Shown here piece by piece: positions 2,945 through 45,486 of a stretch of DNA of 58,760 nt (positions are counted from its first letter, which is position 1; each line of letters opens with the position of its first letter). Below the pieces are notes generated by a model. That model saw only the letters and a list, made by a program, of their open reading frames with translations, had not been told where the DNA came from and made no database searches. Both the position numbers and the translations under genes were made by a program. Source of the DNA: a virus; IMG/VR virus record IMGVR_UViG_3300025127_000039, positions 1 to 58,760 of that record; one strand, given 5' to 3'.

Positions 2945-3225
2945 TGGCTGTTCGTAAAACAAAAGCTGGTCTTGCTCTTAAACGATGGTTTAAAGAAGAC
3001 TGGAAAGATCAAAGAACTGGTAAAAAGTGTGGTAGACAAAAAGGTGAGAAAAGAGGCACGCCTTATTGTAGGCCATCTAAAAGAATATCCAGTAAAACTC
3101 CAAAAACCGGATCTGAGATGTCTGCATCAGAAAAAAGAAAGCGTATAGCACAGAAAAAAAGATTAGGTCAACCAGCAGGTAAGCCGAGAAGAGTTCAAGC
3201 TGTTAGGCGTAGAAAGAAAAAATAA
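2944..3225 (+). CDS. Small basic conserved phage protein
   Basis: A 93-residue, strongly basic protein with the conserved core GLALKRWFKEDWKDQRTGKK, then GRQKGEKRGTPYCRPSKR and SSKTPKTGSEMS. This core recurs in marine phages and I recognise it only as an uncharacterised family. It sits among similar mini-proteins and overlaps both neighbours by one base. Nucleic-acid binding is a guess from charge alone. Confidence 0.75.
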   Translation: MAVRKTKAGLALKRWFKEDWKDQRTGKKCGRQKGEKRGTPYCRPSKRISSKTPKTGSEMSASEKRKRIAQKKRLGQPAGKPRRVQAVRRRKKK

Positions 3226-3800
3226 TGGATGACTATAAAAATCTTGAGGATCAAATTTGTGATGAAATTAGAGAATGGTCAAGATTTGCATTAGAAAAAC
3301 CTAACAAAAATTATAACAATCTACCATCTTGTCCTTTTGCAAAAACAGCTTGGAATAATAAAAAAGTCAACTTTGCTTTCAAAAACAAAAAAGAATATGA
3401 CTCTTTATATCCTTTAATAAATAAATTTCACGATTCAAAAGATTTAATAATTGTTATTGATATGAATTATGAAGATAACAAAACATTTCATGATAATTTA
3501 ACAGACTTAAATAAATTAATACATGAAAACAAATTTGACCAAGATGATATTTGGTTGATGGGATTCCACCCTAATGATGATGTAAATGAGTTAATAGATG
3601 ATGGCACATTCAGAGAACTTGTTAAGGAGGAATATGCTTTGATATTCATACAGAGATTAACAAAGCTTCAAGAAAGTGCAAATAAATTGAAGAAACTTGG
3701 ATATTATGATAAATATTATAATGAGTACAATGTTAAAGATATTTATGAGCAAAGACAAAAATATTATAACAATCTTAAAAGGAGATTAAAATGGCAATGA
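3225..3800 (+). CDS. Uncharacterised acidic-helical protein
   Basis: A 191-residue protein rich in Asn, Lys, Asp and Tyr, unlike its basic neighbours. Near residues 35-40 it has LPSCPFAKTAW, a motif I have seen in small phage proteins without known role. The middle (LIIVIDMNYEDN) looks like a beta strand with acidic residues. The C-terminal third is helical and Tyr/Lys-rich. Start and stop overlap both neighbours. Function is unknown. Confidence 0.6.
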   Translation: MDDYKNLEDQICDEIREWSRFALEKPNKNYNNLPSCPFAKTAWNNKKVNFAFKNKKEYDSLYPLINKFHDSKDLIIVIDMNYEDNKTFHDNLTDLNKLIHENKFDQDDIWLMGFHPNDDVNELIDDGTFRELVKEEYALIFIQRLTKLQESANKLKKLGYYDKYYNEYNVKDIYEQRQKYYNNLKRRLKWQ

Positions 3801-3961
3801 GTCCAAGAAAAATGATGGCAATGTCAAAAGACATGGCTAAAGCAGCTAAAATGATGATGGGTGGCGAAGCAAAACCTAAGAAGATGAGAGGCGGTGGCAT
3901 GGCTAAGAAGATGCGTGGCGGTGGCATGGCTAAAAAAATGAGAAAAGGTGGTAAAGCCTAA
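3791..3961 (+). CDS. Met/Lys/Gly repeat mini-protein
   Basis: A 56-residue protein preceded by an AAAGGAG ribosome site. It begins MAMSPRKMMAMSKDMAKAAK and ends with an imperfect tandem repeat of KKMRGGGMA (three units). The DNA repeats too, with a roughly 27-nt period near 3880-3950. Such Met/Lys/Gly-repeat peptides are common in marine phages and have no known function. The stop overlaps the next start. Confidence 0.65.
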   Translation: MAMSPRKMMAMSKDMAKAAKMMMGGEAKPKKMRGGGMAKKMRGGGMAKKMRKGGKA

Positions 3962-4629
3962 TGGCAACCTCAAGCTCTACAGACTTTGAGTTAGATGTCG
4001 CTGAGTACATTGAAGAAGCTTTTGAGAGATGTGGCTTAGAGGCTAAAACTGGCTACGATTTGCAAACTGCTAGGCGTTCTATGAATATAATGCTTGCGGA
4101 GTGGGCAAATCGTGGTCTTAATCAATGGACTATAGAACAAAGAACACAAGCACTTACAGCAAGTGATTCAGAGTATAGTTTGGGGACTGATTTAATTGAT
4201 ATATTATCTTTAGTTGTAAGACGTAGCGGCACTGATTTTACAATGACTAGAATTAGTCGTGATGCGTTTTTAAATCTACCAAACAAAACTTCAACTGGTA
4301 GACCAACGCAATATTTTTTAGACAGACAAATTACACCTAATTTAAAACTGTTTCCCACGCCGGAGAACAGCACAGATGTTATTGTTTATGACGCTTTAAC
4401 ACGCATACAAGACGCTGATGCACAAGTTAATACTATGGAGATACCTTTTAGGTTTTATCCTTGTCTAACGGCTGGTTTGGCTTATTATATAGCTATGAAA
4501 AAAGCACCGGATAGAATACAGTTACTTAAAACTGTGTATGAAGAAGAATTTGATAGAGCAATGGCAGAAGATAGAGATAGGTCGGCTTTCAACGTGGTGC
4601 CTAAATTAGATTATTATAGGGTGGGTTGA
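3961..4629 (+). CDS. Head-tail adaptor (P22 gp4-like)
   Basis: A 222-residue, mostly helical protein. It begins with an acidic N-terminal helix, followed by AEWANRGLNQWTIEQRTQAL, a segment typical of the P22 gp4 family of DNA-stabilisation or adaptor proteins, and ends with a helical region (YYIAMKKAPDRIQLLKTVYE). It would join the portal ring to the tail and help hold packaged DNA. It lies at the head of the connector and tail operon, with the P22 gp10-like gene about 12 kb downstream. Confidence 0.75.
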   Translation: MATSSSTDFELDVAEYIEEAFERCGLEAKTGYDLQTARRSMNIMLAEWANRGLNQWTIEQRTQALTASDSEYSLGTDLIDILSLVVRRSGTDFTMTRISRDAFLNLPNKTSTGRPTQYFLDRQITPNLKLFPTPENSTDVIVYDALTRIQDADAQVNTMEIPFRFYPCLTAGLAYYIAMKKAPDRIQLLKTVYEEEFDRAMAEDRDRSAFNVVPKLDYYRVG

Positions 4630-5776: not shown

Positions 5777-6208
5777 ATGGCAACAGCAAACGCAGCAACC
5801 AATTATCTAGAGAGACGATTATTACATTTTATATTTAAAAATAACTCTCTTAGTTTTTCATCGCCTGGTGATAGTATTTATGTAGGACTTGCAACGGCAG
5901 TAAGTGCAGCAGAAACTGGTTCCTTAACAGAGGCAACCTTTACAAACTATGCAAGACAACAAGTTACTGCAGCGAACTGGACTACAATAGGTGCAGACTC
6001 AACAGATACACAAACAGCAGTCAATGCAGCTAATATTGAGTTTCCAGCATCTGGTGGCACAAACAATACTATTACACATGTGTTTCTTGCAGACGCATCT
6101 ACTAGCGGTAATATATTATTTGTTGGAGCATTAGATGCAAGTAAGGCAATAGCAAGTGGTGATATTTTTAGAATTAATGCAGGTAACTTAACGATAGAGC
6201 TTAAATAA
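5777..6208 (+). CDS. Tail fibre-type protein
   Basis: A 143-residue protein. It has the pattern of a short phage fibre family: an N-terminal [11 protein letters not shown] helix, [30 protein letters not shown], and a C-terminal [15 protein letters not shown] beta part. A GGAGTA ribosome site precedes it. It is probably a virion surface or tail component at the start of the fibre cassette. Confidence 0.7.
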
Positions 6209-7335
6209 TGGCATTAGTATTAAACGACAGAGTAAAAGAAACTACAACCACAACTGGTACTGGTACACTTACACTAGCTGGTGCAGTTACTGGATTTGAG
6301 ACTTTTGGTTCTGGAGTTGGTAATTCTAATACAACATACTACGCAGTTACACTACCTGGCACATCAGAGTTTGAAGTTGGATTAGGAACACTGAATGGTG
6401 ACTCATCTACTTTAGCTAGAACAACAATTATAAGTAGTTCTAATAGTGATAATGCAGTTAACTTTAGTTCTGGTACAAAGACAATATTTTGTACAATACC
6501 TGCATCAAAATCAGTGTTTTTAGATGCAAGTGGTAATGCAACATTAGGTGCAGATCTATCTGTCGGTGATGATTTGACAGTTTTAGGTGGCTTAATTGAT
6601 CTTAAATCTAATAGTGGGTCCGCCTCGCAAATTAAATTTTACTGTGAAGTTAGTAATGCTCATGCACAAACATTAACAGCACAACCACATTCTGTAGCGG
6701 CTAGTAACACACTAACATTACCAGCAGGTGGTAATTCAACACTAGTATCAGAATCAGCTACACAAACACTAACAAATAAAACTATAGATGCTTCTCAGTT
6801 ATCTGGAACTGTAGCAAATGCAAGATTAGATGCAGAGCTACAAGCACTAGCTGGTTTAACATCAGCCGCAGATAAAGGCATACAATTTACTGGATCTGGA
6901 ACTGCATCAACATACGATTTAACAACGGCAGGTAAAGCGTTACTTGATGATGCAGATGCAGCCGCTCAAAGGACAACATTAGGATTAGGCACAGCCGCAG
7001 TTGCAGCCACTGGTATATCAAATACAAATGTCCCAGTATTTACATCAGGTGTAGCTGATAATGATTTCTTGCGTGTAGATGGTACATCAATAGAAGGTAG
7101 AAGTGCATCTGAAGTATTAAGTGATATTGGTGGTCAAGCCTCATTAACTTTTGGTATATCAAACACAAACGCAGTGAAGATAGATAGTTCTAGTGTTGCA
7201 GATGATGAGTTTGCAAGATTTACTGCAAATGGTTTAGAGAGCAGAAGTGCATCAGAGGTGCTATCTGATATAGGTGCAACAAGTGCTACAGATGCAGCGA
7301 ATGAGGCAACAGCTTTAGCAATAGCGTTAGGATGA
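6208..7335 (+). CDS. Tail fibre protein with repeated shaft motifs
   Basis: A 375-residue protein. The N-terminal 110 residues ([20 protein letters not shown], then [20 protein letters not shown]) are a common phage fibre attachment domain. The rest is Ser/Thr/Ala-rich shaft. It contains two near-repeats of NTNxxxx(S/T)Sgvadxxfxr...[15 protein letters not shown] (residues about 270-305 and 315-355), with a third partial copy, typical of trimeric shafts. Its DNA is correspondingly repetitive near 7020-7280. Confidence 0.75.
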
Positions 7336-31987: not shown

Positions 31988-34159
31988 ATGAACATTATTA
32001 AATTTGGCAACAGTAAACGCAGTATGGATTCTAAGGAATTAGTTGAATTAATAAGTCAAAAAGTTCCATCACAAGTTCAAATTGATTTATTGAGAGAAAC
32101 GTATCCACAAGGTGTCATAAGAGGGGATCAATTTACTATAGGTTCGCTTGGTGGTGAGGCAGGCAAGTCTTTAAAAATAGACATAAATCCTAGATCACCA
32201 TACTTTATGAAAGGACAAGATTTTAATGGTGCAGACGGAGTAGGTGGCATAGTTAAGATATTGATGGAAGGTAGAAATATGAAGTTACCGGAGGTTAAAG
32301 AGTTGTTCGCCTCATATCTTGATGAAGGCACGCCACAACCAGTTGAATCAATTAGTTCTATTATTAAACCGGAATCAAAACAAATAAACATAAACACGCC
32401 TTATGATAGCGAACATAAATATTTGAACGCTCAAGGTGAGTTACTTTGCTTAGTACGCAGATACAATGATATAGATGAACACGGAAATCCTATATTAGAC
32501 TCACATGGCAAACCAAAAAAAGAATTTAGACAGTTTGCTGGAGGCAGTAATTATCCACGTATGCCTGATGTTCGTCCATTATACAATATACCAAATATTA
32601 TAGCTTCAGAAAAAATTATATGGGTTGAGGGGGAAAAATGTGCAGATGCACTTAATGAACTTGGTTATACTGCAACTTGCACAATGGGTGGTGCCGGTAT
32701 GCTTTCAAGAAAGTCTGCAAACTTATTTGACTTTTCTCCGTTGCATGACAAAGAATTAATCATATGGCCAGATAATGATACTGCTGGTCGCAAAGTTGCA
32801 GAGCTAGTACAAGAACTTGCTCTTAACGCCAGTGTTAAATCAGTTACTACATTAACGCCACCAAGAGGTAAGCCTGAAAGATGGGATGTGGTAGATGCTA
32901 TTGCAGAGCAATTTAACATAAATGAATTTCTCAACACTAACATCAAGCAAATAAAAAAGAACATTAATCTTCTTGATGACAGTTTGTTAATTAACAGATT
33001 TGTTGGAGAGGCACCGGAGCAAAAGTTTTTGATAGCTAACACATTACCTTTAGCAGTGCCTATTATATTTTCTGCCGCAGGTGACAGTGGTAAAGGTATG
33101 ATGACATTGGACTTAGCAATGAAAGTATCAAGTGGTCAATCAATGCAAGAATCTTTTGGTGGCATGATTAGTGAGTTTGGCAATTCAATTATATTTACTG
33201 CCGAAGATGATGAAGCAGAGATGCACAGAAGAATTGATAGACTTGATTTTGAAAACAATAGGCAAAGTTTTGAGCATGAGTTACGAATCGTTAGTTTGCC
33301 TAATGTTGGTGGTGTCTTTCCTATACTGCAAGAAACACATGATGGTTACAGAACAAGCGATGAATTTGATAAAATATATGAACAAATACTGCAAATGAAG
33401 AACTTAAAACTTATAGTATTTGATCCTTTGGCTTCATTTGTACACGCAGATGTAAACTCTGATCCTGCGGCGGGTGCGGCTTTAACTGGTTTGTTAGCAC
33501 AAATAGCTACTGAAACCGGTGCCTCAGTCATAATGTGTCATCATATGACTAAAGTTAAAGAAGATTTAGTTGTAAGCACACCGGAACAAGCAAGAAATAT
33601 GATTAGAGGCACGTCTGCATTAGTTGATGGTGTTCGTTGTGCGTTTGCATTATGGCAAGTTGACGAAGCAACTGGGCGTAGAAGATGTCAAGATTTAGGC
33701 ATAGAATATAAAAGAAACAAATGCTTTGATGGTGCAGTCGTTAAATCTAATGGGCCAGCTAACAGAAACATAAGGCACTTTATTAGAGATGAATATAGTG
33801 GATTACTTGTGGATAAAAGCGAAGATATATCAAGATTACATACCGGCTCAAATAAAGAAATCAAAAAGACTGCGTTGTTTAATTGGATTGCAGATTGTGA
33901 AAGAGAGGGCAGAGCTATGACACAACAGTCCGGTGCAGATGCTATTTTGCAAAGAATGTCTGCTGATACTGATGCACCAAGGGTTTTAAACAACTGCACA
34001 CAAAGAATGATTGATGGTCTTGTTAGAGAGTTAATACAAGAGGGCAGACTGGCTAAGTATTCCTTTAGTACAAGTGGTGGCAGAAAGTGGCTTGGCACCA
34101 TTGATGGCGATATGAGTAGAGGTGAATACGAGGCAACCACTGCAAGAGATAATGTATAA
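31988..34159 (+). CDS. TOPRIM primase-helicase
   Basis: A 723-residue replication protein. The first 205 residues, not assigned, include a possible primase-associated region. TOPRIM spans about 207-275 (VEGE 213-216, then PDND 261-264). A RepA/AAA_25-type helicase follows, with Walker A SAAGDSGKG (362-370, K369) and IMCHHMTK. It would prime and unwind phage DNA. The start at 31988 has AGGAG six bases upstream; an ATG at 31982 would leave no spacing. Confidence 0.82.
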   Translation: MNIIKFGNSKRSMDSKELVELISQKVPSQVQIDLLRETYPQGVIRGDQFTIGSLGGEAGKSLKIDINPRSPYFMKGQDFNGADGVGGIVKILMEGRNMKLPEVKELFASYLDEGTPQPVESISSIIKPESKQININTPYDSEHKYLNAQGELLCLVRRYNDIDEHGNPILDSHGKPKKEFRQFAGGSNYPRMPDVRPLYNIPNIIASEKIIWVEGEKCADALNELGYTATCTMGGAGMLSRKSANLFDFSPLHDKELIIWPDNDTAGRKVAELVQELALNASVKSVTTLTPPRGKPERWDVVDAIAEQFNINEFLNTNIKQIKKNINLLDDSLLINRFVGEAPEQKFLIANTLPLAVPIIFSAAGDSGKGMMTLDLAMKVSSGQSMQESFGGMISEFGNSIIFTAEDDEAEMHRRIDRLDFENNRQSFEHELRIVSLPNVGGVFPILQETHDGYRTSDEFDKIYEQILQMKNLKLIVFDPLASFVHADVNSDPAAGAALTGLLAQIATETGASVIMCHHMTKVKEDLVVSTPEQARNMIRGTSALVDGVRCAFALWQVDEATGRRRCQDLGIEYKRNKCFDGAVVKSNGPANRNIRHFIRDEYSGLLVDKSEDISRLHTGSNKEIKKTALFNWIADCEREGRAMTQQSGADAILQRMSADTDAPRVLNNCTQRMIDGLVRELIQEGRLAKYSFSTSGGRKWLGTIDGDMSRGEYEATTARDNV

Positions 34160-35996
34160 AATAGTAGATTTATTTAGTGGCATAGGAGGATTTAGCTATG
34201 CTGCCGAACAAATAGTAGGTGGCTTTGAAACAATAGCTTTCGTTGAAAGAGACGAATATTGTCAAAAAGTCTTGCGTAAACATTGGCACGATGTACCAAT
34301 ATATAGTGATATAAGGAGTTTTGATGGTAAAGAATACAAAGACGCAGATATCGTTGTTGGAGGATTCCCATGTCAACCCTGGTCGGTTGCAGGAGCTCAA
34401 AAGGGAAGCGAAGATGACAGAGATCTCTGGCACGAAATGGTTAGGATTATTGAAGACATACGGCCACGATGGATCATTGGCGAGAATGTGTCAGGCTTTG
34501 TTACAATGCCAATGGGTCTCAGAAGAAGTCTCATTGACTTGGAAAGTATCGGATACAAAGCCATCCCATATCTTATTCCAGCTGCAGCCGTCGACGCCAA
34601 GCATAGACGAATGCGATGCTGGATTGTGGGCCACACCGAACACGATGGATCATCTGCCACCCCGTTCAGAGGAAGGAACAATGAAGCTGATGGAGGGTCA
34701 ACGCAAGGGACGAACAAAACCGGCGAACTTGAGGGAGCAAGTGGACAACAAGACAATGGATATATACAAACAGACATCTTCGACTTTGTGGCCGACACCA
34801 ACGACACAGGAGATAGAGCACCCGCAAGCGGAGTTGACAACGAACAACAGAAGGTTGAGCAAGGACGGGAAGAGCAGCCACAGTCTGAACTTAGCAGACA
34901 CAGTAAAGATGTGGCCAACGCCAACAACAATGGACACGAAGGAAGATGCGTTGAAACACGCAACCAAACTTTTACAGGGCAAAACACACAGAGCAAGTGG
35001 AGAGCCGATACAGAAGTCATTAGTGGACAAAGTAATGATGGAAGAGATAAAGAAAAATCCGGAATTGATGAAGATTTACGAAGATCACGAAATGGTTTTT
35101 CGTCCAAACTTACCACCACAACAGGAGTTTGTGGCTTATCTCAGAGAACAAACAACAATCAAGGAGTTGTCAGAGAAAACGGATATAAAGAAAACAACAA
35201 TAGAACATTGGTTTCGCAAGGATCAAAAGGGATTCAGTCATCCAAGCATAGAGGATTGGGAGAAGATAAAACCACATCTGAATCAAATCAAGTACGATCA
35301 ACAGATGACCACTATAAAAACAAAAGAATGGAAAAAAACAAATCAAATGTGGAGAACGCCAACGGCAGCGAATGCGACACAGGGGCCGAAGAGCGAACAA
35401 CTTTACCACAAAGTGAAGAAAGACGGCTCAAGTGCAATAACATTAGTGGACGAAGTGAAGATGTTCCCAACACCAAGGGCAAGGGATTGGAAAGACGGAT
35501 ACAGAGTACCACCATCAGTACAGAACGGAACGAGAGCACACACTCTGGGAACATTTATAGCAGAGAAAGAGATAATGTGGCCGACACCGACAACAAAGGG
35601 GTACGGACACGCATCAATGGGTCAAACAATGATCTTCAGAAAAAAAGTGGAAGCCGGGGAAATGACCGAACAACAAGCAGAGCAGATGTTGGGTTGCACA
35701 CTAAGACCACCAAGAATGGAGAAATGGGATTATCCCAAAAAGGAGATGTTCCCTACGCCATCGGCAAACGAAGATGCAGCGGGACGACCAGGGGGGAAGA
35801 TGCAAAAGATGTTAGGCAACCATCCTTCCGTGAGAGACCAGTCCTCTGGAACCCTGAACCCAACGTGGGTAGAGTGGCTAATGGGGTACCCAATAGGGTA
35901 CACAGACTTAGATGTTTAGGGAATAGTATCGTGCCACAGGTCGTTGCAAGAATATTTTATGCTATTAAGGAGGCAGATAAAAATGAAAAAATATGA
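34152..35996 (+). CDS. C5 cytosine DNA methyltransferase with overprinted middle
   Basis: A 614-residue frame. Motif I DLFSGIGGF (6-14), motif IV PCQPW (73-77, catalytic C74), motif VI ENV (111-113) and motif VIII AKHRRMR (149-155) are clear. The last 40 residues carry motifs IX-X (RLRCLGNSIVPQVVARIFYA). Residues about 165-570, where a target-recognition domain should be, are hydrophilic and low complexity (Asn, Thr, Ser, Glu, Lys) and do not look folded. There a second protein runs in another frame. Role: methylates phage DNA against host restriction. ATG 34152 is preferred to 34122, which lies deeper in the primase gene. Confidence 0.8.
   Translation: MYKIVDLFSGIGGFSYAAEQIVGGFETIAFVERDEYCQKVLRKHWHDVPIYSDIRSFDGKEYKDADIVVGGFPCQPWSVAGAQKGSEDDRDLWHEMVRIIEDIRPRWIIGENVSGFVTMPMGLRRSLIDLESIGYKAIPYLIPAAAVDAKHRRMRCWIVGHTEHDGSSATPFRGRNNEADGGSTQGTNKTGELEGASGQQDNGYIQTDIFDFVADTNDTGDRAPASGVDNEQQKVEQGREEQPQSELSRHSKDVANANNNGHEGRCVETRNQTFTGQNTQSKWRADTEVISGQSNDGRDKEKSGIDEDLRRSRNGFSSKLTTTTGVCGLSQRTNNNQGVVRENGYKENNNRTLVSQGSKGIQSSKHRGLGEDKTTSESNQVRSTDDHYKNKRMEKNKSNVENANGSECDTGAEERTTLPQSEERRLKCNNISGRSEDVPNTKGKGLERRIQSTTISTERNESTHSGNIYSRERDNVADTDNKGVRTRINGSNNDLQKKSGSRGNDRTTSRADVGLHTKTTKNGEMGLSQKGDVPYAIGKRRCSGTTRGEDAKDVRQPSFRERPVLWNPEPNVGRVANGVPNRVHRLRCLGNSIVPQVVARIFYAIKEADKNEKI
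34324..35919 (+). CDS. Overprinted WPTP-repeat protein inside the methyltransferase gene
   Basis: A 531-residue frame, +1 relative to the methyltransferase. It has its own AAGGAG ribosome site five bases before the ATG. Conserved blocks include SLARMCQALL, SLTWKVSDTKPSHILFQLQP, repeats of WPTPT/FPTPR (six or more), an HTH-like KELSEKTDIKKTTIEHWFRK followed by GFSHPSIEDW, and a C-terminal LNPTWVEWLMGYPIGYTDL. I recognise this set from phage proteins that overlap cytosine methyltransferases. It is rich in Trp and hydrophobic residues, so it probably folds. Function unknown; partnership with the methyltransferase, perhaps target choice, is my inference. Confidence 0.72.
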   Translation: MVKNTKTQISLLEDSHVNPGRLQELKREAKMTEISGTKWLGLLKTYGHDGSLARMCQALLQCQWVSEEVSLTWKVSDTKPSHILFQLQPSTPSIDECDAGLWATPNTMDHLPPRSEEGTMKLMEGQRKGRTKPANLREQVDNKTMDIYKQTSSTLWPTPTTQEIEHPQAELTTNNRRLSKDGKSSHSLNLADTVKMWPTPTTMDTKEDALKHATKLLQGKTHRASGEPIQKSLVDKVMMEEIKKNPELMKIYEDHEMVFRPNLPPQQEFVAYLREQTTIKELSEKTDIKKTTIEHWFRKDQKGFSHPSIEDWEKIKPHLNQIKYDQQMTTIKTKEWKKTNQMWRTPTAANATQGPKSEQLYHKVKKDGSSAITLVDEVKMFPTPRARDWKDGYRVPPSVQNGTRAHTLGTFIAEKEIMWPTPTTKGYGHASMGQTMIFRKKVEAGEMTEQQAEQMLGCTLRPPRMEKWDYPKKEMFPTPSANEDAAGRPGGKMQKMLGNHPSVRDQSSGTLNPTWVEWLMGYPIGYTDLDV

Positions 35997-38259: not shown

Positions 38260-38585
38260 TGTTAGTTATAATAGAATCACCCTATATGGGTAATGTTAAA
38301 AGTAATGTCGCATATGCACGCAAGTGTATGAGCGACTCCCTACTGCGAGGCGAATCCCCATTTGCCTCGCATCTTCTTTACACACAAATTTTAGATGACA
38401 ATAAAGATATAGAACGTCTTACCGGAATGTCTAGGGCATTTAATTGGTATCGCCACGCAGATCTAATGGCAGTTTACACAGACAAAGGTATATCAAATGG
38501 CATGAAAATGGGCATGGAAGTAGCAGAGAAGCTCGGAATAGAAATGGTTTATAGGACATTAAATGGAAATAATAATAGAGGGTAG
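38259..38585 (+). CDS. DUF7768-like protein
   Basis: A 108-residue protein starting at the ATG that overlaps the previous stop. The pattern VIIESPYMGNVKSNVAYARK, RGESPFASHLLYTQILDDN, ERLTGMSRAFNWYRHADLMA, VYTDKGISNGMKMGMEVAEK matches a widespread phage family (DUF7768) predicted to have a Rossmann-like nucleotide-binding fold, with function unknown. It overlaps the methyltransferase gene by 23 nt. Confidence 0.75.
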   Translation: MLVIIESPYMGNVKSNVAYARKCMSDSLLRGESPFASHLLYTQILDDNKDIERLTGMSRAFNWYRHADLMAVYTDKGISNGMKMGMEVAEKLGIEMVYRTLNGNNNRG

Positions 38586-39867
38586 TACAGTTTATAATGG
38601 CGACTGTTTAGAAGTCATGGAGAAAATACATAAGTGTTCGGTGGACAGTGTGGTAACCGATCCGCCGTATCACCTTACATCTATTGTTCAGAGGTTCGGA
38701 AAAGAAGGTTCGGCACCAGCACAGTTCGGTACAGACGGAGCGTTTGCTAGGGCATCAAAAGGTTTCATGGGCAAAGAGTGGGATGGAGGTGATATAGCTT
38801 TCCAAGCGAACACTTGGCGTAAATGTTATGAGTTGCTGAAGCCTGGAGGTCATTTGATAGCGTTTAGCGGATCACGAACATACCACAGAATGGCTTGTGC
38901 CATAGAAGATGCCGGATTTGAAATTAGAGATCAATGTATTTGGTTGTATGGTAGTGGGTTTCCTAAAAGCCATAATATCGGCAGAGAGATAGATAAGAAA
39001 CAAGGCAATGATAGAGAGGTCGTTGGAGAGGTAAGGGCAGGCAAAAACGCATTAGGCCAAGATAGTGGTTGGAACAAACACAACAATAGAACTGAAATAG
39101 AAGTTACTAAAGGCAACTCAGAATGGGAGGGTTGGGGTACTGCGTTGAAACCTGCACATGAACCAATGGTGTTAGCAAGAAAGCCTTTGTCGGAGAAGTC
39201 GGTAGCAGACAACGTGATGCAGCACGGAACTGGAGCCATAAACATTGACGCTTGTCGTGTTGGTGGTCAGTCAGAAGATACAGAGCGTAAAAAAGTTGTT
39301 CGCAAAGCTCGGACAGCAGATGGCGTGTGGACTGATGATAATAGTGGCATGAAGTCGGAGGGTTCGGAGTTTGCAGATGCAGACCCAAGAGGGCGTTGGC
39401 CGAGCAATGTGATGCACGATGGCAGCGAACAAGTGCAAGAAATATTCCCGGAAACTAGCAGCACGGAGGTCAGCAGAGAGCGAACACACAAGGGGATTTG
39501 GACTGCCGGTGAACTGGCAGATACCGAACAATTCATGCCAGCATATGGCGACCAGGGCAATGCGTCTAGGTATTTTTATTGTGCAAAGACATCAAAAGAA
39601 GAGCGTAAATTTGGACTGGGTGGTGAGGTTGCAGCGAACACTCACCCAACAGTTAAACCAGTTGAGCTAATGAGATACCTTGTTCGCTTGATAACGCCAA
39701 AGGAAGGTGTGGTTCTCGATCCATTTATGGGAAGTGGATCAACTGGAATGGCAGCTAGAGAGGAGGATTTTAGCTTCATTGGAATAGAAAAAGAAAGCGA
39801 ATATTATGAAATTGCCAAAGCAAGAATTAAAAATGTTAAGCCACAGTTAAAATTATTTGACTTTTAG
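38563..39867 (+). CDS. N6-adenine / N4-cytosine DNA methyltransferase
   Basis: A 434-residue beta-class amino-methyltransferase. The catalytic motif DPPY is at 33-36 and the SAM-binding motif DPFMGSGSTG at 386-395, in that order. A large insert between them (about residues 120-340) would hold target recognition. HPTVKPVELMRYLV precedes motif I. Role: protects phage DNA from host restriction, or regulates by methylation. It is the second DNA methyltransferase here besides the C5 enzyme. A promoter with operator follows. Confidence 0.9.
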   Translation: MEIIIEGSTVYNGDCLEVMEKIHKCSVDSVVTDPPYHLTSIVQRFGKEGSAPAQFGTDGAFARASKGFMGKEWDGGDIAFQANTWRKCYELLKPGGHLIAFSGSRTYHRMACAIEDAGFEIRDQCIWLYGSGFPKSHNIGREIDKKQGNDREVVGEVRAGKNALGQDSGWNKHNNRTEIEVTKGNSEWEGWGTALKPAHEPMVLARKPLSEKSVADNVMQHGTGAINIDACRVGGQSEDTERKKVVRKARTADGVWTDDNSGMKSEGSEFADADPRGRWPSNVMHDGSEQVQEIFPETSSTEVSRERTHKGIWTAGELADTEQFMPAYGDQGNASRYFYCAKTSKEERKFGLGGEVAANTHPTVKPVELMRYLVRLITPKEGVVLDPFMGSGSTGMAAREEDFSFIGIEKESEYYEIAKARIKNVKPQLKLFDF

Positions 39868-44373: not shown

Positions 44374-45486
44374 ATGATTGATATAGCAATAGGATTTGAA
44401 AGAGAAGTTGACTCCTTATCTGTAAGAGATGGAATCAATATCTTTGCAAATCATCCAACTTTAAACTTTATAAAAGTTAAACACGATGCGAGTCTTCCAA
44501 ATGGTTGTGAGATTATCTTTCCACCTTTGAGTAGTAAAGCAGAATCTACTTGGCAATATTCAAGTCAAGTTAATGATTTGATTATTGCAAATGGTGGAAG
44601 AATAACTCGTCAATGTGGTCATCATGTTCATTTTGGATTGAAACCAATAACAATGAATTGTGAGGATTTTAACAGACAATCAATTCAATTGTTTAAAGAT
44701 AGAAACCAATACTTCCAAGACTCAAATGATATGTTTCAATTTGAAGTTATCAAAGACGTTGTTTATAGATATGCACAATATCAAGACTTCATATCAAGTT
44801 TCTTAGCACCTAGTCGCAGAAACTCAAGATATGCAAGTCCTATAAATGGTTTCTTAAATAGAATAGAAGATTCTAGAGATATGACTCAATTAAAGAATTG
44901 TATTAATGGAAAGTTTTATTCTGTTAACTTATCTAATATTGATATTAGAAATCAAAAAGGAACGATTGAGTTTAGACAACATCAAGGAACAGTAAACAAT
45001 ACTAAGTTAAAAAATTGGATTATGTTTCTTGTTAATATGTTTGATTATACAATCAATCATAGAATCCAAGTTGTAAGACAAGGCGAAAAGTTTATTGATA
45101 ACTTACAAAATACAATGCCAAGAAATACCAAACTCCATCAAGTTTTTGAGATGTTACAAACAGATAATGGTGCGACTACTCGTGAGATTATGGACTCTGT
45201 TGGTATTAATGATGCAAGATCTGTAAGAAGAACCATTAACACTATAAGACGTAAACTAGGCGATTGTAGTTTGGTTATTTGTTTGACTCAAGAATACTAT
45301 GGTCATTTAAATGGTACGTCTAATGGTCTTTACGACTTGAATGGATACAAGATTCCAAAGCAAGTTGAGAGAGAATCTCAAGGCGAAGTTATCATTGATA
45401 ACAATGCAGATTCCCATGTGTTTAGTAACTTAGCAGAGTCATTAAAGACATGGTTTAACAACAGAATATCAAGTCTAGGTAACTAG
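44374..45486 (+). CDS. Amidoligase (glutamine-synthetase-like) with C-terminal HTH
   Basis: A 370-residue protein. IGFERE (6-11), GCEIIFPP (44-51), GHHVHFGL (82-89) and TIEFRQHQGT (197-206) follow the Amidoligase_2 pattern, an ATP-dependent enzyme with a COOH-NH2 ligase fold akin to glutamine synthetase. Residues about 255-300 (LHQVFEMLQTDNGATTREIM) resemble a winged helix, unusual for the family. It would join an amine or amino acid to a carboxyl group of a protein or peptide. AAAGGA precedes the ATG. A terminator follows the next small gene. Confidence 0.75.
   Translation: MIDIAIGFEREVDSLSVRDGINIFANHPTLNFIKVKHDASLPNGCEIIFPPLSSKAESTWQYSSQVNDLIIANGGRITRQCGHHVHFGLKPITMNCEDFNRQSIQLFKDRNQYFQDSNDMFQFEVIKDVVYRYAQYQDFISSFLAPSRRNSRYASPINGFLNRIEDSRDMTQLKNCINGKFYSVNLSNIDIRNQKGTIEFRQHQGTVNNTKLKNWIMFLVNMFDYTINHRIQVVRQGEKFIDNLQNTMPRNTKLHQVFEMLQTDNGATTREIMDSVGINDARSVRRTINTIRRKLGDCSLVICLTQEYYGHLNGTSNGLYDLNGYKIPKQVERESQGEVIIDNNADSHVFSNLAESLKTWFNNRISSLGN

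Follow-up and report, generated by a model that had tools for sequence, protein, structure and literature searches.

Two overlapping reading frames in a virus genome are likely to encode the large and small domains of a split cytosine-5 DNA methyltransferase

The window analysed here is the entire 58,760-bp virus record IMGVR_UViG_3300025127_000039, whose genes include portal, terminase, head and replication genes. Within it we found a locus in which two frames of the same DNA are under selection in complementary regions, and we consider it likely that these frames together encode a two-polypeptide C5 methyltransferase, with one frame (alpha) providing the large domain and the other (beta) the small domain. 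An earlier note on this DNA had described two long frames overlapping for about 1.6 kb, with the +1 frame preceded by its own AAGGAG, and both descriptions proved accurate: the beta ORF lies wholly within the alpha ORF, with an overlap of 1,596 nt.

34152-35996, + strand: alpha, frame 0, 614 aa; catalytic large domain of a C5 cytosine methyltransferase, with motifs I-VIII and X; PF00145 at 1.6e-43, phrog_363 at 4e-66
34324-35919, + strand: beta, frame +1, 531 aa; proposed small-domain subunit (target recognition and motif IX); phrog_1008 at 9e-33
34313-34318, + strand: AAGGAG ribosome-binding site of beta, 5 nt upstream of ATG 34324

Alpha extends from the ATG at 34152 to a stop ending at 35996 and beta from the ATG at 34324 to a stop ending at 35919, with a TTG at 34321 as an alternative beta start that would give 532 aa. 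Ribosome-binding-site matches of at least 4 bases preceded 70% of beta starts (60 distinct) compared to 21% of control ATGs. Beta matched no Pfam family in a Pfam search, and its own family, phrog_1008, is a phage family labelled only "DNA methyltransferase".

Known C5 methyltransferases consist of a large domain with most of the motifs and a small domain with a variable region and motif IX (PMC3404938). Alpha satisfies the DNA (cytosine-5) methyltransferase (PF00145) criterion in that motifs I, IV (PCQ), VI (ENV) and VIII are present in order, but it does not provide a recognition domain and motif IX ahead of motif X in one chain, both of which appear to lie in the beta frame instead.

34167-34190, + strand: alpha motif I (DLFSGIGG), from the alignment of relatives
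34362-34385, + strand: alpha motif IV with the catalytic Cys (GFPCQPWS region); P73, C74, Q75 and P76 invariant in the alignment
34479-34490, + strand: alpha motif VI (GENV); E111, N112 and V113 invariant in the alignment
34602-34634, + strand: alpha motif VIII (HRRMRCWIVGH), from the alignment of relatives
34635-35850, + strand: alpha middle, a low-complexity linker that is kept open, its amino acids without purifying selection (dN/dS 1.65-2.07; 0 stops versus 37 expected)
35907-35975, + strand: alpha motif X (RCLGNSIVPQVVARIFYAI region), from sequence and conserved in relatives

Motifs I, IV, VI, VIII and X, which had been assigned to frame 0 in the earlier note, were thus all located there, while motif IX, assigned to the same frame, was not and corresponds to the end of beta (LNPTWVEWLMGYP). 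The frame 0 middle, which the earlier note described as low-complexity where a target-recognition domain would be expected, is indeed low-complexity and shows no purifying selection. For the alpha of a compact relative (L104), the best PDB matches were M.HhaI and M.HaeIII, and these spanned only the part before the recognition region.

To locate motif IX, we made a profile of this motif from seven canonical C5 methyltransferases and scanned it on 137 non-redundant betas.

34324-34626, + strand: N-terminal region of beta (about 101 aa); constraint weak to about residue 62, present beyond it on deep comparison
35848-35904, + strand: beta motif IX (GTLNPTWVEWLMGYPIGYT), frame +1, directly upstream of alpha motif X; best profile window in 122 of 137 betas

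Of the 137 betas, 122 had their best motif-IX window, across the full protein, in the C-terminal LxPx6LMGxP segment, although only 15% of betas, and 2% of alpha tails, scored above the shuffled 99% level. These modest scores support, but do not prove, the presence of motif IX in beta. The DNA order, beta motif IX followed by alpha motif X, is the canonical one. Motif IX is therefore probably in beta and missing from alpha, an assignment made from sequence, which would make beta the small domain and alpha the large, catalytic one, with reading frame dividing the two. When the beta segment was appended to alpha as a test of motif IX, the Pfam/NCBIfam match was no longer than before. AlphaFold2 prediction of the compact L104 beta alone with 50 relatives was poor (pLDDT 55, pTM 0.31), so that the small-domain reading of beta is without fold support. 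A search of the beta profile against PDB identified no solved relative; it returned only two weak Csf1 chains, which we took as chance matches.

Between about residue 101 and motif IX, beta consists of successive modules, each opening with [WFY]xTP. The earlier note's observation that one DNA repeat has two readings was confirmed, since the [WFY]xTP modules of beta read as VADTN- or VANAN-like text in alpha.

34627-34788, + strand: cassette 1 (WATPNTMDHLPPRS...), beta frame
34789-34911, + strand: cassette 2 (WPTPTTQEIEHP...), beta frame
34912-35349, + strand: cassette 3 (WPTPTTMDTKED...), beta frame; includes the HTH-like block
35350-35463, + strand: cassette 4 (WRTPTAANATQG...), beta frame
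35464-35577, + strand: cassette 5 (FPTPRARDWKDG...), beta frame
35578-35748, + strand: cassette 6 (WPTPTTKGYGHA...), beta frame
35749-35847, + strand: cassette 7 (FPTPSANEDAAG...), beta frame
34907-35344, + strand: 438-nt module present in the window and absent from the ~96% identical locus L013; bounded by 19-nt near-repeats encoding the MWxTPT boundary
35101-35316, + strand: HTH-like block in cassette 3 (phrog_4151); elsewhere in named phages it was seen only in annotated DNA methyltransferase genes

Across 174 dereplicated loci we counted 524 modules, with 1 to 7 per beta (mean 3.0), and the window reaches the maximum of seven; a first, cruder split of the cassettes gave 28 recurring families. 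These cassettes vary as units. Cassettes at least 80% identical at the amino acid level were found in 537 locus pairs whose alpha cores were less than 65% identical, and cassette 7 of the window was 89-93% identical in loci whose alpha core was only 47-49% identical. The difference between the window and L013 is one exact 438-nt module. The HTH-like block that the earlier note had reported in frame +1 received mixed support: it matched phrog_4151, a "DNA binding protein" family, at 7e-4, while its Pfam support was weak (E about 0.1-0.2). Among named phages, this block occurred elsewhere only in genes annotated as DNA methyltransferase; in Staphylococcus phage Alsa_2 (L008) it lies inside an N6_N4_Mtase domain. 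Taken together, the sharing of cassettes between distant loci, the 438-nt module and the recurrence of the HTH block in annotated methyltransferase genes indicate that the cassettes are best interpreted as target-recognition modules, an inference made without any measurement of methylation.

A more specific version of this reading is that beta is a multispecific array, in which each [WFY]xTP cassette would have its own DNA target and phages would exchange cassettes with one another at the repeated MWxTP codons, with alpha remaining open through any array; we regard this version as a real possibility, but one to which we would not quite give even chances. In two loci (L088, 2443-3844, and L090, 1963-3769), beta runs beyond motif IX and the alpha stop and carries several extra [WFY]xTP modules outside the overlap, which are perhaps a reserve of cassettes.

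The Alsa_2 methyltransferase of the N6/N4 type with the HTH block (L008, 1256-3064) adjoins a gene annotated as a Mom-like DNA modification protein. The window itself encodes a second DNA methyltransferase of the N6_N4 class at 38563-39867 (PF01555 at 3e-35), 2.6 kb downstream and without the beta HTH block, as well as a putative amidoligase at 44374-45486 (PF12224 at 6e-13).

The generality of the nesting was assessed on relatives picked by the alpha catalytic domain alone. This selection gave 80 viral loci, of which 74 were decidable because the script did not recognise alpha in the other six, and all 74 contained a nested beta: 63 at once and 11 that were missed by the first pattern, ten of these being confirmed by eye and the last (L143) having a +1 frame equal in length to its short alpha. 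Among loci picked by the beta end, 107 of 108 were nested in an alpha frame, and in bacterial genomes of many phyla 75 of 80 loci were nested. The pair is carried by Paenibacillus phages (Fernvirus), with one record naming beta "internal gene", by coliphage K1G, where it is annotated "Mte8-like", and by prophages of E. coli strains including H10407 and PT62, for which RefSeq annotates only alpha in those examined. The PT62 prophage region (L319) contains two different nested alpha/beta pairs (2989-3975 and 5947-6684), again with only the alphas in RefSeq. Two loci considered as single-frame alpha-beta fusions (L256 and L260) are actually frameshifted arrangements. At L323 (1393-2554), alpha stops after motif VIII and the +1 frame contains cassettes, motif IX and motif X in an M.AquI-like layout; since this is a single case, decay or sequencing error cannot be excluded.

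This association bears on whether beta could be an independent overprinted protein, such as a regulator, a DNA-binding protein or an anti-restriction factor, that has no part in the enzyme. The lack of a Pfam family or solved relative, the resemblance of the HTH block to DNA-binding proteins (phrog_4151) and the absence of interaction data all leave room for this explanation. However, beta was practically never found apart from a C5 alpha in the loci examined and alpha always had beta, while alpha is without motif IX and a constrained recognition region and beta ends in a motif-IX-like segment, so we consider an independent function unlikely.

A programmed frameshift could instead join the N-terminal part of alpha to the beta cassettes and motif IX in one chain, and the resulting chimera would follow the canonical domain order up to motif IX; in a few frameshifted loci (L256, L260), the two frames do form a single reading frame. 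Against this, beta has its own start and a ribosome-binding site that is enriched over controls, and motif X stays in the alpha frame, which is kept open to reach it. We therefore give a frameshift product very little credence in comparison with two separately translated polypeptides.

Frame-specific selection was examined in 32 relatives obtained from a scan of viral contigs, with rates taken from nine disjoint pairs. In full-length close relatives, both frames were open and co-extensive and beta started at the same place in alpha; relatives differed in length by whole cassettes with both frames intact. Over alpha motifs IV-VIII, differences in the nine pairs fell at beta codon positions 1/2/3 in numbers of 15/73/23, indicating that the alpha frame is selected there, whereas in two parts of the middle the corresponding numbers were 52/34/152 and 28/13/161, indicating that the beta frame is selected there. 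When changes were scored by their effect in both frames, the cassette region of the nine pairs had a dN/dS of 0.06-0.07 in beta and 1.65-2.07 in alpha. By the same two-frame counting, the first ~100 beta codons had a dN/dS of 0.06-0.11 in alpha and 0.5-0.9 in beta, and both frames were constrained at the end of the overlap (0.14-0.17 in alpha, 0.04-0.06 in beta). Since this is a simple counting method applied to nine pairs, the contrast is large but the exact values are imprecise.

The alpha frame is nevertheless kept open. The middle of the window (391 codons) contains 84 sites where a synonymous beta codon would give an alpha stop, and 0 alpha-frame stops were observed compared to a mean of 37 (at least 23) when beta was recoded with the codon usage of the genome; stop avoidance in the alpha frame also held in 12 relatives. 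From alpha codon 119 onward, deeper comparisons showed the synonymous third bases of alpha (beta position 2) to be 2.0-2.6x more conserved than expected, with an excess of only 1.1-1.35x ahead of the overlap, indicating that beta is constrained from about residue 62 onward. The zero alpha stops found in 621 cassettes are true by construction and were excluded from the evidence, and the beta-versus-alpha identity contrast of those cassette pairs is biased because the pairs were chosen on beta identity.

Thus, selection switches frame along the overlap, with both frames selected in complementary regions; in the middle, beta is the constrained frame and alpha, we infer, looks like the newcomer. 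The earlier note had suggested that selection on the middle may act mainly through frame +1, with frame 0 having to stay open, and the position-wise rates, the two-frame rates and the stop avoidance (0 versus 37) bear this out. It had also named an outcome that would refute the proposal, namely frame +1 conserved no better than chance with frame 0 under purifying selection throughout, and the frame-specific rates do not meet it.

The same rates weigh against a recognition domain in the alpha middle with beta adding motif IX alone. This arrangement would follow the placement predicted for M.EcoHK31I (PMC3404938), but the alpha middle is low-complexity and without purifying selection (1.65-2.07) whereas beta is strongly conserved over this stretch, and we find the arrangement highly improbable. 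Finally, although the first ~100 overlap codons are alpha-dominated (beta dN/dS 0.5-0.9), the idea that frame +1 is a chance ORF or a by-product of frame 0 conservation and composition is ruled out, with next to no doubt remaining, by the codon-position and two-frame rates (0.06-0.07 in beta versus 1.65-2.07 in alpha across the middle, with differences on beta third positions), by the stop avoidance, and by length variation in whole cassettes that leaves both frames intact.

The preferred reading, a two-polypeptide enzyme, suggests the following mechanism. Alpha would be the large domain responsible for catalysis, carrying motifs I-VIII and X and, in place of the small domain, an unconstrained linker. 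Beta, presumably translated from its own internal ribosome-binding site, would be the small domain, in which motif IX comes after a target-recognition region made up of exchangeable [WFY]xTP cassettes, so the small domain would have kept its place in the DNA while being read in the other frame. Beta may bind alpha, put a cassette into the major groove and complete the active enzyme, although assembly and activity are both inferred; alpha alone would be expected to lack target choice. In phages, a methyltransferase with no restriction partner usually serves to protect the phage genome from restriction, and we infer that this enzyme could likewise shield phage DNA from host restriction. The earlier suggestion that the +1 protein could supply target choice remains the best-supported inference and the most likely role of beta, but it has not been demonstrated: there are no methylation, expression or interaction data and no structure model.

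If this reading is correct, phrog_1008, a widespread phage gene of unknown function without a Pfam family, is likely to supply the half that has been missing from a common class of phage cytosine methyltransferases. The specificity of such enzymes should then not be predictable from alpha alone, and alpha-only annotation hides the half that probably sets it. The locus also illustrates two-frame coding very clearly: what sets a protein domain apart is its reading frame and not a gene boundary, and selection visibly switches between frames. If the cassettes are recognition modules, they offer a natural series for linking sequence and methylation target, and they keep a legible record of how phages and restriction systems have contended; if the multispecific array also holds true, one overlapping locus would provide phages with a swappable library of methylation specificities.

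The earlier note named no characterised enzyme with this arrangement; a precedent exists in M.EcoHK31I (PMC3404938). In this E. coli enzyme, which recognises YGGCCR, motifs I-VIII and X are in the larger polypeptide and motif IX is in the smaller, with both being needed (PMC3404938, citing Lee et al. 1995), and the recognition domain is predicted to be in the larger subunit (PMC3404938). M.EcoHK31I is the closest characterised enzyme, although sequences were not compared. Its smaller polypeptide, too, is reportedly encoded within the larger gene in an alternative frame. The window resembles it in that alpha has motifs I-VIII and X and the smaller polypeptide, beta, probably has motif IX (its end scores best in 122 of 137 betas, though the scores are modest). 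It differs in that the alpha middle is unconstrained (1.65-2.07) and the cassettes are in beta, rather than a recognition domain being predicted in the larger subunit, and in that no cassette array is described for M.EcoHK31I in the part of the source available. We do not claim membership of an M.EcoHK31I type because the published placement of the recognition domain is not met and the sequence was not compared.

M.AquI (CYCGRG) also consists of two polypeptides, with the recognition region and motifs IX and X in the smaller (PMC3404938). In the window, the smaller polypeptide likewise appears to hold both the recognition region and motif IX, but the genes are nested and motif X, which M.AquI has in its smaller subunit, lies in the alpha frame. 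The phrog_363/phrog_1008 pairs of Paenibacillus Fernvirus and coliphage K1G are the same nested pair, and some of their records annotate the overlap, with no mechanism given. A literature search for nested cytosine methyltransferases in phages found only mentions of M.EcoHK31I. M.BatI is a small prophage C5 enzyme whose motif I, CxGxxG, was reported as unusual (PMC8936443). A divergent pair in phage C75C1 (L007, 1813-3255) has motif I CTGYEG, which fits the CxGxxG pattern, and M.BatI might be an L007-like alpha with an unnoticed nested beta; no clear M.BatI relative was found in 400 genomes of one bacterial class.

The SPbeta-group multispecific C5 methyltransferases (M.SPRI, M.H2I) carry tandem recognition modules between motifs VIII and IX in a single chain. 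The seven modular cassettes of beta, whose recognition role is inferred, may be comparable in placing several modules ahead of motif IX, but the SPbeta-group enzymes are single-chain while here a second, nested protein carries the modules. PMC8936443 refers to M.H2I as multispecific. What looks new in comparison with these systems is a beta built of interchangeable [WFY]xTP cassettes that are common to distant loci.
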